From positions 1 through 47,021 of the forward strand of contig JADFPP010000021.1 of NCBI GenBank assembly GCA_022562275.1: 47,021 nt of DNA, given 5' to 3'. Under the pieces are notes generated by a model, which searched no databases, was not told the origin of the DNA, and saw only the letters and a program-made list of their open reading frames with translations. Positions 4,531-47,021 of this stretch are shown in pieces. The number at the start of each line of letters is the position of its first letter. Position 1 is the stretch's first letter. The stretch comes from Bacteroidota bacterium. GTDB taxonomy: Bacteria > Bacteroidota > Ignavibacteria > Ignavibacteriales > Ignavibacteriaceae. Made by a program: the position numbers and the translations under genes.

Positions 4531-4689
4531 GATTTAGCTGATTATTTTTTAATGGATTGAAAATGTTGTAAACTTTTATTATTATATATATCGTATTTTG
4601 AAAGAACTTTATGATTAACAGAAAGAAATTTCTTACTATAACTAACATAGGGGAAAAAAGTAACCCCGTTATAAGATAAAATTATAAAA

Positions 4690-4719
4690 GCACCCCGATT
4701 TGATCTGGGTGCTTTTTTT
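4690..4719 (+). terminator. Rho-independent terminator after ispG
   Basis: GCACCC (4690-4695) pairs with GGGTGC (4707-4712) across an 11-nt loop and is followed by seven T. It ends the ispG transcript. Unusually, the T run ends three bases before the ATG of the next gene, so the hairpin sits where that gene's ribosome-binding site would be. Confidence 0.75.
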
Positions 4720-4722
4720 ATT

Positions 4723-5835
4723 ATGAAATGTGAAGAAGTTATAAAATATTTAGAAGAATGGGCTCCTATAGAAATTGCGTGGGGAAAAGATAACGTTGGT
4801 CTTCAAATCGGAACAACCGATAGGAAAATGAAGAATATATTACTTAGTCTGGATCTCAACATAAATGTGATTGATCAGGCACTTAAAAAGAAATGTAATT
4901 TTATTATAACTCACCATCCCTTACTTTTCAAACCATTAAGAAAAATAGATACGAAATCCGATTACACATCGAGACTTGTTGAAAAACTTATTAAAAATGA
5001 TATTACTCTTTATTCAGCCCATACAAATCTTGATTATACCAGAGATGGAGTAAGCTTTCAATTGGCTAAAAAACTGAACCTGCACAACATTAATTTTTTA
5101 GTTAACCTTTCAGAAAATCAAGTAAAATTAGTTGTGTTTGTTCCCGGAAATAGTGCCGATGCTGTTGCTGAATCTATATATCGATCCGGTGGGGGTATAA
5201 TTGGCGACTACACCAAATGCAGCTACAGGTCTAGCGGAACCGGTACATTTAGAGGATCTGAAAAGACTAATCCATCGATTGGTAAAAAAGAAAACCCGGA
5301 ATCTGTTAACGAAATAAGATTAGAAGTGCTTGTTGATACCTGGAAATTACGTAGGGTAATCGAAGCAATGAAATCAGTGCATCCTTACGAAGAAGTTGCA
5401 TACGATCTTTACCCGTTAAAAAATGATAATGTAAACTACGGAATTGGGGCTGTTGGTGAATTAAGTTACGCAATGAATAAGAAAGAATTTTTTAATCATA
5501 TATCAGGGTGCTTAAAAATTAAGAATTTCAAATATTCTAAAGGGAAGAATGGTAAAATAAAAAAAGTTGCCGTTTGTGGCGGATCTTGCAGTGAATTATT
5601 AGATAAGGCAATCTACTTAGGAGCAGATGCATTTATTACCGCAGATATAAAATATCATTCTTTTCAGGATGCCAAAGGTCAAATTCTTTTTATTGATGCA
5701 GGTCACTACGAAACTGAGATCCATACACTTGAAGAAATACAAAAAAAATTAACTCGTTTTCTTACAAAGGAATCGGGAATTAAAGTTATTAAATATAGCG
5801 GATCTACAAATCCAATAATTTTTTATAACAACTGA
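4723..5835 (+). CDS. Nif3-like dinuclear metal centre protein (DUF34, YqfO type)
   Basis: Member of the DUF34/NIF3 family, hexameric ring proteins with a two-metal site. Proposed roles include GTP cyclohydrolase-like and metal-insertion functions, but none is settled. The N-terminal half has DNVGLQIG and the ligands H64-H65 (THHPLLF), H100 and D104 (SAHTNLDYT). The C-terminal half supplies H328 and E332 (DAGHYETE). At 370 residues it contains the PII/CutA-like insert (about 125-235) typical of Bacillus YqfO, unlike the ~250-aa E. coli YbgI. The ATG at 4723 fits the family N-terminus but has no Shine-Dalgarno sequence; a terminator T run precedes it directly. The zinc-ribbon gene follows after 14 bp, a common pairing. 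Confidence 0.92.
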   Translation: MKCEEVIKYLEEWAPIEIAWGKDNVGLQIGTTDRKMKNILLSLDLNINVIDQALKKKCNFIITHHPLLFKPLRKIDTKSDYTSRLVEKLIKNDITLYSAHTNLDYTRDGVSFQLAKKLNLHNINFLVNLSENQVKLVVFVPGNSADAVAESIYRSGGGIIGDYTKCSYRSSGTGTFRGSEKTNPSIGKKENPESVNEIRLEVLVDTWKLRRVIEAMKSVHPYEEVAYDLYPLKNDNVNYGIGAVGELSYAMNKKEFFNHISGCLKIKNFKYSKGKNGKIKKVAVCGGSCSELLDKAIYLGADAFITADIKYHSFQDAKGQILFIDAGHYETEIHTLEEIQKKLTRFLTKESGIKVIKYSGSTNPIIFYNN

Positions 5836-6575: not shown

Positions 6576-6750
6576 AATTCAATCAGGTGCTTTTTTTATC
6601 TGATTAACGCTTAATAATTTATTATATTTACTTCGGAATTAGAATATGTTAGATTTTAGAAAAATTGTTGGCGATATCATAAATTTGTAATTAGCAAAGT
6701 TGTACACTTTTAATATAGTGTTCAATTTTATTTTAAAAGAATAAAAAATA

Positions 6751-7150
6751 GATCAGTCCGGGCAATTGCTCCTCTAAAAAAATTGGAGGGGAGGAAAGTC
6801 CGAACTTCATAGAACAGGGTGCCGGGTAACCCCCGGGAAATATAAGAGTAATCTTATGTTTACTGCTAGTGCCACAGAAAATATACTTCCCCGGTTTTTT
6901 TAAGACCGGGGTAAAGGTGAAAAGGCGGGGTAAAAGCCCACCGCTCTAATGGTAACATTGGAGGCAAGGTAAACCACACCTGAAGCAAGGTCAAATAGAG
7001 AGGCTGCTTCCCGGCTTGTTTGGGAATTAGAGTTGTTCGCTCGATAGTCTCCGGGTAGACCGCTAGATCCTGATGGTAACATCCGGACAAGATAAATAAT
7101 TGCCATCCCGATTTTTTTTGGGATACAGAATTCGGCTTATAAGACTGAGC
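6751..7150 (+). ncRNA. rnpB: RNase P RNA, bacterial class A
   Basis: Catalytic RNA that matures the 5' ends of tRNAs. The conserved P4 strand GAGGAAAGTCCG lies at 6791-6802, and the 3' partner ACAGAATTCGGCTTAT at 7125-7140. P1 is formed by GATCAGTC (6751-6758) and GACTGAGC (7143-7150), with one mismatch. Between them are GC hairpins such as CCCCGG...CCGGGG (from 6891) and the GGTAACA segments. The length of about 400 nt is usual. T-rich sequence follows the 3' end. No protein should be called here; the minus-strand reading frames are chance. It lies 40 bp before recJ. Confidence 0.97.
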
Positions 7151-7190
7151 TATTTTATTTGTTCTTTTTATTCCTTATCAAGTACTGAAT

Positions 7191-43376: not shown

Positions 43377-43638
43377 TCGATAATTTAATGCAATAATATG
43401 CAATCAATAATTACATGGTTACAGCTTAGGCAGAAAGGACGCAGTATCGGAAAGATTAAATTGACCGGATTACTTTATTTATGCCTGCGCTGACCGAACG
43501 TGATATTTTACATATTGCAGTGCTGTCCAATATAAATTGAAAACTGAAGATTTGTTTCGAATAATAAAATTTTTATTACATTAGAACTCATCCCTCCCAG
43601 GGAGTCCTTTGCCGAAGGCATTCCTTCAGAACGGACAA

Positions 43639-43661
43639 CCCTTCTCTTTCCAAGAGAAGGG
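43639..43661. repeat. Perfect 10-bp inverted repeat
   Basis: CCCTTCTCTT and AAGAGAAGGG are separated by TCC, followed by TTATTAAT. It could end the radA transcript, though it lies 263 bp after the stop and lacks a clean T run. Confidence 0.5.
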
Positions 43662-43691
43662 CTTATTAATAATGAGGTCTAATTGCTAACA

Positions 43692-43806
43692 ATCTGTCCC
43701 AACATGATCATTAATCGATTCATTGTCAATAATTCTCTCTCTTTTTAAGAGAGACCTGCCTAGCGCAGGCAGGGATTAGAGAGAGTTCTTTTTGTTTTGG
43801 ACAGAT
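43692..43806. repeat. Nested palindromic element before the RRM gene
   Basis: Outer arms ATCTGTCC (43692-43699) and GGACAGAT (43799-43806). Within them are CTCTCTC (from 43735) with GAGAGAG (to 43795), and the GC-rich core CTGCC-TAGC-GCAGGCAG (about 43756-43772). The nested-arm design resembles the element at 9675-9886. Confidence 0.5.
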
Positions 43807-43914
43807 GTGACATATTGCAACAAAATAAACTTTGTTCTAATAGGTAATTAATTTATCTTTTAGTCCGGTATTTATGCCGATGTTAATTTATAATTATTTT
43901 TTTGAGGTACTTTA

Positions 43915-44166
43915 GTGAGTAAAAAGCTTTTCGTGGGATCTCTCCCATGGGCAGTAAACGATGAAGCTTTGAAAGAGGCTTTTGCTACTTATGGTAACGT
44001 GATATCTGCCAATGTTGTTACTGATCGGCAAACCGGTCGATCGAGAGGTTTCGGATTTGTTGAGTTTGAAAACGACTCTGAAGCCGCTGCAGCTATCGAA
44101 GCATTGAACGGTTCCGAACTTGACGGACGGAATATCGTTGTAAATGAAGCAAAGCCAAAGAATTAA
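43915..44166 (+). CDS. RRM-type RNA-binding protein
   Basis: An 83-residue single RNA-recognition-motif protein, like the small Rbp proteins of cyanobacteria and Bacteroidota that are often cold-induced. RNP2 is LFVGSL (residues 5-10) and RNP1 RGFGFVEF (44-51), with the exposed aromatics intact; the fold ends at IVVNEAKP. It starts at GTG 43915 with GAGG 7 nt upstream. A strong terminator follows within 35 bp, so it is monocistronic. It is the last ordinary chromosomal gene before the cassette array. Confidence 0.94.
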   Translation: MSKKLFVGSLPWAVNDEALKEAFATYGNVISANVVTDRQTGRSRGFGFVEFENDSEAAAAIEALNGSELDGRNIVVNEAKPKN

Positions 44167-44197: not shown

Positions 44198-44220
44198 AGC
44201 GCCCGACGGGGCGCTTTTTT
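44198..44220 (+). terminator. Rho-independent terminator after the RRM gene
   Basis: AGCGCCC (44198-44204) pairs with GGGCGCT (44209-44215) over a GACG loop, followed by a T6 tract. A very clear intrinsic terminator. Confidence 0.9.
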
Positions 44221-44346
44221 ATTTTAAATTACTTATAAACTTTGTAACGTATTGATTTACTTATATTTACCTATCTTATAATAACATTATAGTAACATTT
44301 TTTAATAAATACTTCTCTCAGATCATCTTAACAATTTTGAAAATAC

Positions 44347-44473
44347 TATAACGGGGGCGTTAAGCGCCCTCCGACTCTTAAAAGAATCGACTATTTCATT
44401 ATAGCCAACATTTTGCAATTTTCGCGCCGCTTACCCTCCGCCGGAGGCGGGTCGCTTGCACGCGGGGTTAGAC
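44347..44473 (-). other. attC-like site A
   Basis: About 127 bp with imperfectly complementary ends: TATAAC (44347-44352) and GTTAGAC (44467-44473; GTTRRRY). AAGCG (44362-44366) pairs with CGCTT (44453-44457), CCC with GGG (44449-44451), and GCGT with ACGC (44460-44463). T44452 is unpaired, and G44458 lies in a bulge. An extrahelical T and G on this arm are what folded attC sites show on their recombining strand, here the plus strand. The loop holds a CCTCCG/CGGAGG palindrome. Confidence 0.7.
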
Positions 44474-44486
44474 GCTCGCTGTTGGT

Positions 44487-45281
44487 CTACTGCGAAATAA
44501 ATGCTATAACCTCTTTCCACCAATGGAGTTCTGCAGCAACCGGCACTTCGTTATGTCTTACATCTTTAAACATCCACAGTCTCTTGTTTGCGGTTAATGA
44601 CTCATACAACCTTTTACCATGCTGCACTGGAACAACCTCATCGTTTTCGGCAAGAACGACAGCAATATTTCCATCAAATCTTTGAAGGTCATCAACACTG
44701 TTGTATTTGTCGAGAACTAACCAACGTGCTGGAAGGAACCAATAGTGTGTTTGAGCAAGATTGGGTAGCGAATCCCAGGCCAGAAACAGAATCACTCCTT
44801 TAATGGGGATATCAGATTTACTGAGAGCACTGCAAACGACCCCACTTCCAAGAGATTCGCCCCATAGGTACAGAGGCTCCCCAAACTCCTGATAGGCAAT
44901 CCTTATGGTTTCGAGCGCATCCTTTACCAATACATCCTCACTGGGTTGTCCAGATCGGCCTCCATAGCCAGGATATTCGGCTAAAATGACTCGCATATTT
45001 TGAATAGATAGCGCTTTGACATAGAAGCTGCGATGATAGGCTGCGCCTGCATTGCCATGAAATACGATGACGGTTCCCTTTGCGTCAAGCAGTTTTGCTT
45101 GACTGATAAATCCTTGAAATACTTCAAAAGAAGGCCAGTAGATTAAGCCTTCTTTGATTGCACGCTGTTCAGCCAACTTGATTTGAGACGGCAGATAGAG
45201 TAATTTCCGCTGAAATATAAAAACTATTGCGCACAAGGCTACATAGCCCAGCAATGTATATATCAATATTTTCCAAATCAT
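44487..45281 (-). CDS. Alpha/beta hydrolase (ABHD17/BEM46-like), cassette gene
   Basis: Serine hydrolase with an N-terminal membrane anchor (about residues 3-22). The core has the oxyanion motif FHGNAGA, the nucleophile elbow GESLG (Ser143), a late acid in AENDEVVP and the catalytic His in VRHNEVP. This is the BEM46/ABHD13-17 group; the substrate (thioester, lipid or peptide) is unknown. ATG 45281 has AAAGGA upstream; GTG 45308 is an alternative adding nine residues. The codon and base composition look less AT-rich than the neighbouring genes, suggesting transfer from another genome. The stop lies 14 bp before attC-like site A. Confidence 0.88.
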   Translation of the reverse strand: MIWKILIYTLLGYVALCAIVFIFQRKLLYLPSQIKLAEQRAIKEGLIYWPSFEVFQGFISQAKLLDAKGTVIVFHGNAGAAYHRSFYVKALSIQNMRVILAEYPGYGGRSGQPSEDVLVKDALETIRIAYQEFGEPLYLWGESLGSGVVCSALSKSDIPIKGVILFLAWDSLPNLAQTHYWFLPARWLVLDKYNSVDDLQRFDGNIAVVLAENDEVVPVQHGKRLYESLTANKRLWMFKDVRHNEVPVAAELHWWKEVIAFISQ

Positions 45282-45330
45282 TTGAGTAACAATTCCTTTC
45301 GATTGCACGAGAGTAAAATTTTAGGGAGCG

Positions 45331-45515
45331 TCTAACGGTGTTGCCGCTAACCGGCAGCCCATAACAAGAATGCCGAATTGAAAGTTACAGCCAATAATTT
45401 TTAACAACATTATTTAATATAACAATTTTGATTACGATGCTTACATTTTTAACCAAACCCGATAATTAGAAAATACCGCAATCAAAACACGGTCGGGTGG
45501 AAAAGCTGGTTATAC
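45331..45515 (-). other. attC-like site B
   Basis: Ends TCTAAC (45331-45336) and GTTATAC (45509-45515), 185 bp apart. The end sequences match the partner cassettes exactly (11 and 13 bp inverted identities), but pairing of the inner boxes is poorer than in sites A and C. A local TGCCG/CGGCA hairpin sits at the left edge (45342-45356). At 185 bp it is longer than most attC sites. Confidence 0.6.
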
Positions 45516-45523
45516 AGTAATTA

Positions 45524-46141
45524 TTATAAAATAAATGGTTTATATTTTTTGTCTAAAAATTGAATTTTCTTACCACCAAATAAAAATATAAATGCTGATT
45601 CTAATTCCAATGCCCTACTTGAAAAAACTTTCATATATAATTTACGTTGACGTAGTAATAGAAAATGATTTACTAAATACCCGATACAAAGGATACTTAT
45701 TGTTGGGTAATTCAAAAAATAAAAGATTACTGATAAAGCAATCACAATTATTGGCATTATTTTCTTTAAGGGGAAAAAGTTACTTGTAAAAGTCCCGGCA
45801 ATAAAAGGAAAGATTATTCCGACAAGAAAAAAGTAATTTGAAAAAACGAATGTAATTATTAAGAAAATAATTGAAATCAAATAAGGAAGACTGGTAAAAG
45901 TGTATTGCAGAATCTTCTCATATCTTTTTGCGATAAGAAAAAATGCAGTGCTACTAATATCGCCCATCCCTTGTATAATATGCGCATTCCCATTCTTAAC
46001 TTCTTGAACCAACTCATTATGAGAATTAAAGGGTAACTCTTCTATCTCATTAATGCTTTTGGGGTAATTATATTTTCTCATAACTTTTGAATTCATTATT
46101 GACCTTAATTCGCCATCAAGTTTCAAGCAAAATTCATTCAT
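45524..46141 (-). CDS. Unknown membrane protein, cassette gene
   Basis: A 205-residue protein without a recognised family. A soluble N-terminal part (about 1-75; LPFNSHNELVQEVKNGNAHIIQGMG) is followed by about four membrane helices (roughly 80-100, 103-120, 128-148, 150-165), then an amphipathic C-terminal segment ending GKKIQFLDKKYKPFIL. Strongly AT-rich. It is the only gene between attC-like sites B and C: the start is 27 bp from the cassette edge and the stop 9 bp before site B. Orphan membrane proteins are common integron cargo. Function unknown. Confidence 0.7.
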   Translation of the reverse strand: MNEFCLKLDGELRSIMNSKVMRKYNYPKSINEIEELPFNSHNELVQEVKNGNAHIIQGMGDISSTAFFLIAKRYEKILQYTFTSLPYLISIIFLIITFVFSNYFFLVGIIFPFIAGTFTSNFFPLKKIMPIIVIALSVIFYFLNYPTISILCIGYLVNHFLLLRQRKLYMKVFSSRALELESAFIFLFGGKKIQFLDKKYKPFIL

Positions 46142-46162
46142 TTTTTTATTACCTTATTACTG

Positions 46163-46349
46163 TATAACGACATTGCAACTAAAGCGCCGCCCAGAATTAG
46201 GATGCCTGCTCTTTAGTGCAAACCGATTTTTATTTATTAACTTTATTTATTATTCACACTTATAACAACAAACTCAAATAAATCACCAACTTACAAAATC
46301 AAAAAATCGCCAAATAAAATAGGCGGTCGCTTTGAGTTGCTGGTTATAT
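46163..46349 (-). other. attC-like site C
   Basis: The clearest of the three. TATAAC (46163-46168) faces GTTATAT (46343-46349). GCAACT (46175-46180) pairs with AGTTGC (46335-46340), AAAGCG with CGCTTT (46328-46333), and CCGCC with GGCGG (46322-46326). Two bases on the right arm, T46327 and G46334, are left unpaired 7 nt apart, as in the recombining strand of known attC hairpins. It spans 187 bp with an AT-rich centre. Confidence 0.72.
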
Positions 46350-46382
46350 GTACGTCAACTTATAATCATTATTTAATACATT

Positions 46383-47021
46383 TTATATCACAGGACTTTC
46401 TTTTTGTCGCAGGGAATACCATTTATATTCATTCCAATTTGGATCTATTCTTTTCAATTCATCGATTACACAAATCATCGCTTTTATTGAATCTTTTACA
46501 TTTACTACAAATTTATTTTCTTCATCTTTGATGTTATTACTCATTGCAAAAGTATATTCTATAATGTGAGATTTATAATGAACTAAATTATTACGTAATG
46601 TTACTACTTTGTCTAGCAATTGAAACGCTTGTGAATCACGATTAAATTCGGCATTCGAAAATAACTTAGGGAAAATAATCCATTTTGATCTCACTTCTAA
46701 CTTGTCTAGATAGTTTTCAAAATATGATTTTGAAGAACGTGAAATAGCATAATGATTTATAATTGCTTCTAAACACATTGCAGAAAATATTATCGTTATA
46801 TGACCCGCTGCTTCACGATCATTTCTATAACCGGGGGCAATATTTAGCAATCTTTTGATTTCTTTAGAATTGTTTTCGTCATAAATATTTTCATTATTTT
46901 TATCTAACTCATCAATTTTAAACCAAGTATTTTTTAGCTTTCCATCATAATCCCAAAATTCAAGAAAATGATTTTTACTAATATCAAAATAATGTTCACC
47001 ATATGATGTTAAATACTTTTC
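46383..47021 (-). CDS. HEPN-like protein, cassette gene (5' end outside window)
   Basis: The frame is open from the right edge to a stop at 46383: 212 residues, N-terminus missing. A TTG at 46850 is an internal codon, not the start, because the frame continues upstream with good sequence (e.g. LEFWDYDGKLKNTWFKID). The C-terminal half is helical and has ITIIFSAMCLEAIINHYA, WIIFPKLF and VVTLRNNLVHYKS. RNNLVH fits the RxxxxH motif of HEPN domains, many of which are RNases in toxin-antitoxin and antiphage systems. It stops 33 bp before attC-like site C. The RNase role is inferred from the motif only. Confidence 0.75.
   Translation of the reverse strand, partial: EKYLTSYGEHYFDISKNHFLEFWDYDGKLKNTWFKIDELDKNNENIYDENNSKEIKRLLNIAPGYRNDREAAGHITIIFSAMCLEAIINHYAISRSSKSYFENYLDKLEVRSKWIIFPKLFSNAEFNRDSQAFQLLDKVVTLRNNLVHYKSHIIEYTFAMSNNIKDEENKFVVNVKDSIKAMICVIDELKRIDPNWNEYKWYSLRQKESPVI

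Follow-up and report, generated by a model that had tools for sequence, protein, structure and literature searches.

An integron gene-cassette array at the end of a contig from an Ignavibacteriaceae genome

We analysed a complete contig of 47,021 bases (JADFPP010000021.1, or C125 in our numbering; hereafter the window), which belongs to a 3.4-Mb draft Ignavibacteriaceae genome of 148 contigs with a listed contamination of 2.72% (GCA_022562275.1, here G000), and found that its last 2.7 kb is almost certainly the attI-distal end of an integron gene-cassette array. The stretch from 44346 to 47021 comprises, all on the minus strand, two gene cassettes in full and a third in part. A previous examination of the letters alone (the sequence-only reading) had proposed a cassette array here, and that proposal is supported by the anatomy of the cassettes, by an IntI integrase and an array on another contig (C45) of the same genome, and by breakpoints between genomes. 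Integrons are a known bacterial means of gathering and exchanging genes. Each unit of such an array is a gene followed by an attC site; IntI recombines the folded bottom strand of attC at the G|TT of its R′ box, and cassettes are thereby excised as circles and re-inserted elsewhere.

The three minus-strand reading frames described in the sequence-only reading are present at 44487-45308, 45524-46141 and 46383-47021, the last of them open at the contig edge, and a noncoding stretch lies below each. Gene cassette 1 (44352-45335, 984 bp) consists of an alpha/beta hydrolase gene and attC A, the terminal attC of the array (44346-44473). The boxes of this site, read from the window sequence in gene orientation as for all three sites, are R″ GTCTAAC (44467-44473) and R′ GTTATAG (44346-44352), with the crossover after G 44352. 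The hydrolase (273 amino acids, GTG start as listed) has a hydrophobic N-terminus and matches Pfam PF12146, Hydrolase_4 (E 1.3e-12, 48 bits against a cut-off of 27). Gene cassette 2 (45336-46167, 832 bp) carries a gene for a protein of 205 amino acids with hydrophobic segments and attC B (45330-45515; R″ GTATAAC 45509-45515, R′ GTTAGAC 45330-45336). Gene cassette 3 (46168-47021) is incomplete, its start lying beyond the contig end, and comprises an open frame of 212 amino acids and attC C (46162-46349; R″ ATATAAC 46343-46349, R′ GTTATAC 46162-46168).

Searches of Pfam, NCBIfam and PADLOC gave no match for cassette protein 2 under the thresholds applied and no family over a cut-off for cassette protein 3. 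A sequence search of solved structures gave nothing better than E 0.58. For cassette protein 3, a single-sequence structure model (mean predicted local distance difference test score, pLDDT, of 37.6) was useless and was not used. The RNNLVH stretch of this protein is a candidate for the RxxxxH motif of HEPN proteins, which it resembles.

One line of evidence for the array comes from comparison with other genomes of the family (a sample of 80, our own included, numbered with G), in which contigs are numbered with C. In genome G030, which belongs to another genus (RadA 67% identical), cassettes 2 and 1 are adjacent and 96.2% identical in DNA over 1,840 aligned bases; the shared block ends 5 nt beyond the crossover G of attC A. 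G005, of the same genus as our genome (RadA 85%), carries cassette 1 in a different setting, and there the match ends 3 nt past the same G. The DNA downstream of this breakpoint is unrelated in all three genomes. At the other end of cassette 2, sharing starts at G|TTATACAG, and the attC upstream differs. For sites A and C as working crossover points, these breakpoints are the strongest evidence. In G005, part of the cassette 1 3′ end is present a second time beyond the next gene (C12, 6175-6282; 95% over 108 bp), perhaps as the remnant of an earlier rearrangement.

Each of the window cassettes is rare in the family. The cassette 1 protein was found in 3 of the 80 genomes at E <= 1e-20 (our own, G030 at 98% and G005 at 95% amino acid identity). 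Cassette gene 2 was likewise found in three at E <= 1e-4: our own, G030 (99%) and G034 (29%, a weak match with stops). For cassette gene 3 there were two genomes at E <= 1e-5, namely our own, through a homolog on C23 (55%), and G005 (45%).

A second line of evidence lies in the ends of each cassette. The exact inverted matches listed in the sequence-only reading, 11 nt for cassette 1 (44467-44477 with 45326-45336) and 13 nt for cassette 2 (45509-45521 with 46156-46168), are present, and both begin at the crossover G. We extended the comparison to the seven complete cassettes of this genome with both ends assembled (two in the window, four on C45 and one on C137). The complementary run between a cassette start and its own R″, counted from the G, was 11 and 13 nt in the window and 10, 11, 11, 5 and 10 nt in the others (mean, 10.1), compared with a mean of 4.6 nt and a maximum of 7 in 42 cross-cassette pairs. 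Only 1 of 5,040 permutations, the true pairing, reached the observed total, which bears out the view that the link between a start and its own R″ is a cassette signature. An excerpt of PMC2727003 puts this complementarity at 9-11 consecutive nt in most gene cassettes, an expectation with which the 11 and 13 nt of the window agree.

The attC sites themselves were examined with a two-arm position profile, for which six sites from other contigs served as the training set (four from C45 and one apiece from C137 and C145). Site C scored 49.0 and site B 34.3, compared with at most 29.0 among 200 random windows of similar dinucleotide content (mean, 19.0; standard deviation, 2.5), although the independence of these scores is incomplete, since the C137 and C145 training sites were found by a motif written from sites including B and C. 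A third row, at 33.6, reused the 3′ arm of C with a poor 5′ arm, and the next rows reached at most 17.3. The profile misses site A, whose support comes instead from the shared DNA ending at its G|TT in three genomes. The R′-arm motif in its exact form has eight matches in our genome and none for the reversed control; six of the eight had served to write it, and the new ones, on C137 and C145, are both read as array ends. Site B matches this motif, which was written partly from B. A MAFFT alignment put the 5′ arms of the attC sites out of register, and an attC covariance model was given up.

Pairing of the arms alone, computed with DNA parameters for nine sites (A, B, C, C137, C145 and the four C45 sites, c45_1 to c45_4), favours true partners: own pairs averaged -15.0 kcal/mol versus -11.3 for the 72 cross pairs, and 7 of 20,000 permutations were as good. 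A, C and c45_1 rank their own arm first in both directions; the ranks were 1st and 2nd for c45_2, 6th and 1st for c45_3, 3rd and 7th for c45_4, 1st and 4th for C137, and 4th and 3rd for C145. As described in an excerpt of PMC2727003, the attC bottom strand has an extrahelical G in L″ and a T 6-8 nt from it. The computed bottom strand of C shows an unpaired T and an unpaired G with six paired bases between them on the R″-L″ arm, and c45_1 and c45_2 show the same pair. In the C145 site the T is unpaired and the G falls within a three-base unpaired stretch. The pair was not seen in the computed structures of B, c45_3 and c45_4; the structures considered here are those of A, B, C, C145 and the four C45 sites.

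The genome that bears the window also encodes an integrase. A gene on C23 matches the IntI model TIGR02249 at 303.9 bits, above the curated cut-off of 265, and a second piece of the match, at 79.6 bits, lies in a different frame; in 14 control genomes all matches to this model were sub-threshold. C23 and C45 share an exact 127-bp overlap at their ends, and since the end of C63 is similar, though not identical, a join of C23 to C45 is likely but not proven. Past the integrase start, C45 continues with a leader and an attI-like G371|TT, after which come four cassettes bearing attC sites; one of these cassettes is a Phd/ParE-type toxin-antitoxin pair. The C45 array ends before chromosomal-looking open reading frames, so that the array in the window is a different one. 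Contigs C137 and C145 begin inside further arrays. The window being the whole contig, there is no sequence to its right in which to look for intI and further attC sites, as the sequence-only reading had proposed. An integrase and further attC-gene-attC units are present on other contigs of the same genome, and the outcome that this reading had named as counting against an integron did not come about.

A close relative of this integrase region is found in JACZTL010000013.1 (Bacteroidetes bacterium isolate B13T1B10), a record that apparently belongs to G030, since the RadA match lies at the same place with the same score. It encodes an intact integrase of 319 amino acids, identical at 246 of 256 residues (96%). 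Over the 374 bp of C45 that run from the start of the integrase to attI, the two records are 98.4% identical, and identity ends at C45 position 374, three bases past the G of attI; this concerns the C45 array and not that of the window.

Several further features were observed on these contigs. Another integrase N-terminus, truncated to 51 codons, opens C63 (1-157) and starts at the same base as the C23 end; over 148 bp it is 96% identical to that of locus L040. An orphan attC 3′ half lies between two open reading frames of C137 (4551-4647) and is 91% identical to that of site C. The first, partial cassette of C137 (245-350) looks G+C-rich, and its short attC-like site (GCCTAAC...GTTAGCT) differs in style from the others, which suggests cargo from a different lineage. 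The cassette gene 3 homolog on C23 lies on the far side of the integrase 3′ end (4612-5268), and no site on that contig matches the attC motif.

A number of results weigh against an integron or limit the case for it. The IntI frame on C23 is broken near its 3′ end, changing after HTFRHSF, so the gene may be dead or misassembled. The window contig has no TIGR02249 match; it ends inside cassette 3, and the other end of the array is missing. The last 127 bp of the window match no other contig of the genome, and no exact end overlap of at least 16 bases joins it to C23 or C63 (searched whole) or to the first parts of C45, C137 and C145. As whole bottom strands, A (z -0.48) and B (z 0.08) fold no better than dinucleotide shuffles, and C alone passes (z -2.79, with 1 of 200 as good); folding by itself would have rejected A and B. 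The own arms of B rank 5th and 9th of nine and do not pair. The sequence-only description of three large imperfect palindromes is not confirmed. An extrahelical T and a G bulge had likewise been claimed for A and C: C has both, whereas the computed duplex of A has the unpaired T alone, its G-containing bulge (GC opposite T) appearing only in a hand alignment, so that among the three window sites the two are computed clearly together for C alone. With one mismatch allowed, the R′-arm motif has 47 matches in our genome against 35 for the control; this shows no wealth of further sites, and the looser search was not used. In the family sample, the reversed control motif is also somewhat commoner in genomes with IntI (p 0.006), and 56 genomes have no IntI over the cut-off, one of which (G005) has 19 motif matches. 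Site B, whose R boxes and profile score fit attC while its L arms are unpaired, looks degenerate or recombined.

Could these sites instead be transposon ends, repetitive extragenic palindromic (REP) or miniature inverted-repeat transposable element (MITE) repeats, or terminator hairpins that fell by chance between three genes? A dispersed repeat does directly adjoin the array, and the poor folding of A and B also counts in favour of such an origin. Gene-specific complementarity between cassette start and end, matches to the attC profile and breakpoints at G|TT are not expected of it, however, and none of the three cassette genes matches a transposase family, though two match no family at all; we consider this explanation very improbable. 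Still less credible is a binning or assembly artefact that brought in cassettes from another organism. The draft state of the genome and its listed contamination, together with cassettes nearly identical to those of another genus, could be taken in its favour, but the 47-kb contig that carries them also bears alaS and radA, in an order shared with a congeneric genome whose copies are 80-82% identical at the DNA level.

Within the integron reading, a special case deserves more weight. CALINs are clusters of attC sites lacking an integrase, and off-target insertion is among the ways in which they form, according to an excerpt of PMC8618304. The window array may be of this kind, seeded away from attI by off-target insertion of cassettes at a G|TT in the chromosome and lacking an adjacent integrase, and we judge the chances of this to be evenly balanced. 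The array next to the integrase, on C45, ends before chromosomal-looking open reading frames and is separate from that of the window; contigs C137 and C145 supply two more apparent array ends, and the shared block of two cassettes terminates at a different chromosomal position in each of two genera. Against this, the window array has no assembled left end and an integrase could lie nearby, a second, truncated intI is present on C63, and draft genomes are said to overstate CALINs (an excerpt of PMC9024848). It is conceivable, if on balance rather unlikely, that arrays throughout this family have spread by repeated off-target insertion; this would mean several integrase-free arrays per genome, seeded at intergenic G|TT, two of them beside the same dispersed repeat family, and cassette blocks that crossed genera recently (96% DNA identity, compared with 67% for RadA). 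As for the integron in the window, its cassettes would have been moved by the IntI of this genome or by an intact version in other cells, the array would be transcribed and selected for its cargo, and its unseen right side may lead to another integrase or, as in a CALIN, to none.

The chromosomal side of the array is occupied by alaS, radA (both named by eye from the sequence) and a plus-strand gene for an RRM-domain RNA-binding protein (43915-44166; Pfam PF00076, E 3.7e-26), the first gene outside the array. We looked for an empty site in G005: alaS-radA is present, the RRM gene is absent after radA, and the best RRM match lies elsewhere (C26), so that no empty site was found. Between the RRM gene and attC A, the flank at the distal end consists of a copy of a dispersed intergenic repeat of the host genus (44213-44345; 110-130 bp), of which G005 has four copies and G003 a single one. 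Of the six copies in all, that of the window and one in G005 (C8, 2351-2460) adjoin an apparent attC R′ end. Another dispersed repeat lies between radA and the RRM gene (43515-43810), with copies on C51, C43, C83 and C76 of the same genome and further ones in G002, G003 and G006; short inverted repeats are visible in it by eye, and none of at least 12 nt was found. Far from the array, positions 6750-7155 encode a bacterial RNase P class A RNA (287 bits), the sole Rfam match in the whole window at gathering thresholds.

We next consider how the array fits the distribution of integrons in the family. IntI scores over the cut-off in 24 of the 80 genomes. The R′-arm motif occurs 268 times in the 80 genomes and its reversed control 90 times, and the median per genome is 6.5 in the 24 IntI-positive genomes versus 1 in the 56 others (p 2e-8, uncorrected for completeness or genome size). 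In G005, 9 of the 19 motif matches form one 9-kb run (C31, 1377-10169), a candidate integrase-free array. Complete integrons in Chlorobi, Ignavibacteriae and Salinibacter are reported in an excerpt of the IntegronFinder 2.0 paper (PMC9024848), and Bacteroidota are among the phyla with integrons in an excerpt of "The Natural History of Integrons" (PMC8618304). The suggestion that this array would broaden the known host range therefore fails, given the integrons of Ignavibacteriae already in print and IntI in 24 of the 80 family genomes.

Taken together, the array is genuine but ordinary: the sequence-only reading named its kind correctly, and there is little in it to surprise. It is a further well-supported example of an integron array from outside Proteobacteria and leaves the known host range as it was. 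That up to three genomes share these cassettes, with their breakpoints at the crossover base, amounts to a natural experiment. The array is of value as one observation on how cassettes move between genera and as a source of two uncharacterised cassette proteins.

Among known systems, integration at attG sites, reportedly described by Loot et al. in Nat Microbiol in 2024, resembles the window array in that the latter ends at a G|TT in a chromosomal intergenic repeat; it differs in that neither an empty site nor a left boundary could be found, so that the window array is at most a candidate for attG integration. A CALIN is counted from at least two attC sites. The window contig has three, with no integrase on the available part of the array, but the contig stops inside cassette 3, and an integrase may lie beyond it. 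The closest comparison is with chromosomal integrons, as described in an excerpt of PMC9024848. The window array is truncated by the end of a contig that carries no integrase, and it comes from a genome whose integrase frame is broken; set against that description, we found no difference in kind. Like chromosomal integrons, this genome has an IntI over the TIGR02249 cut-off with a divergent array behind an attI-like leader (C23/C45), attC sites with R″, L″, L′ and R′ boxes and, in some, an extrahelical G and T, and a cargo that is mostly uncharacterised and includes, on C45, a toxin-antitoxin pair of the Phd/ParE type.

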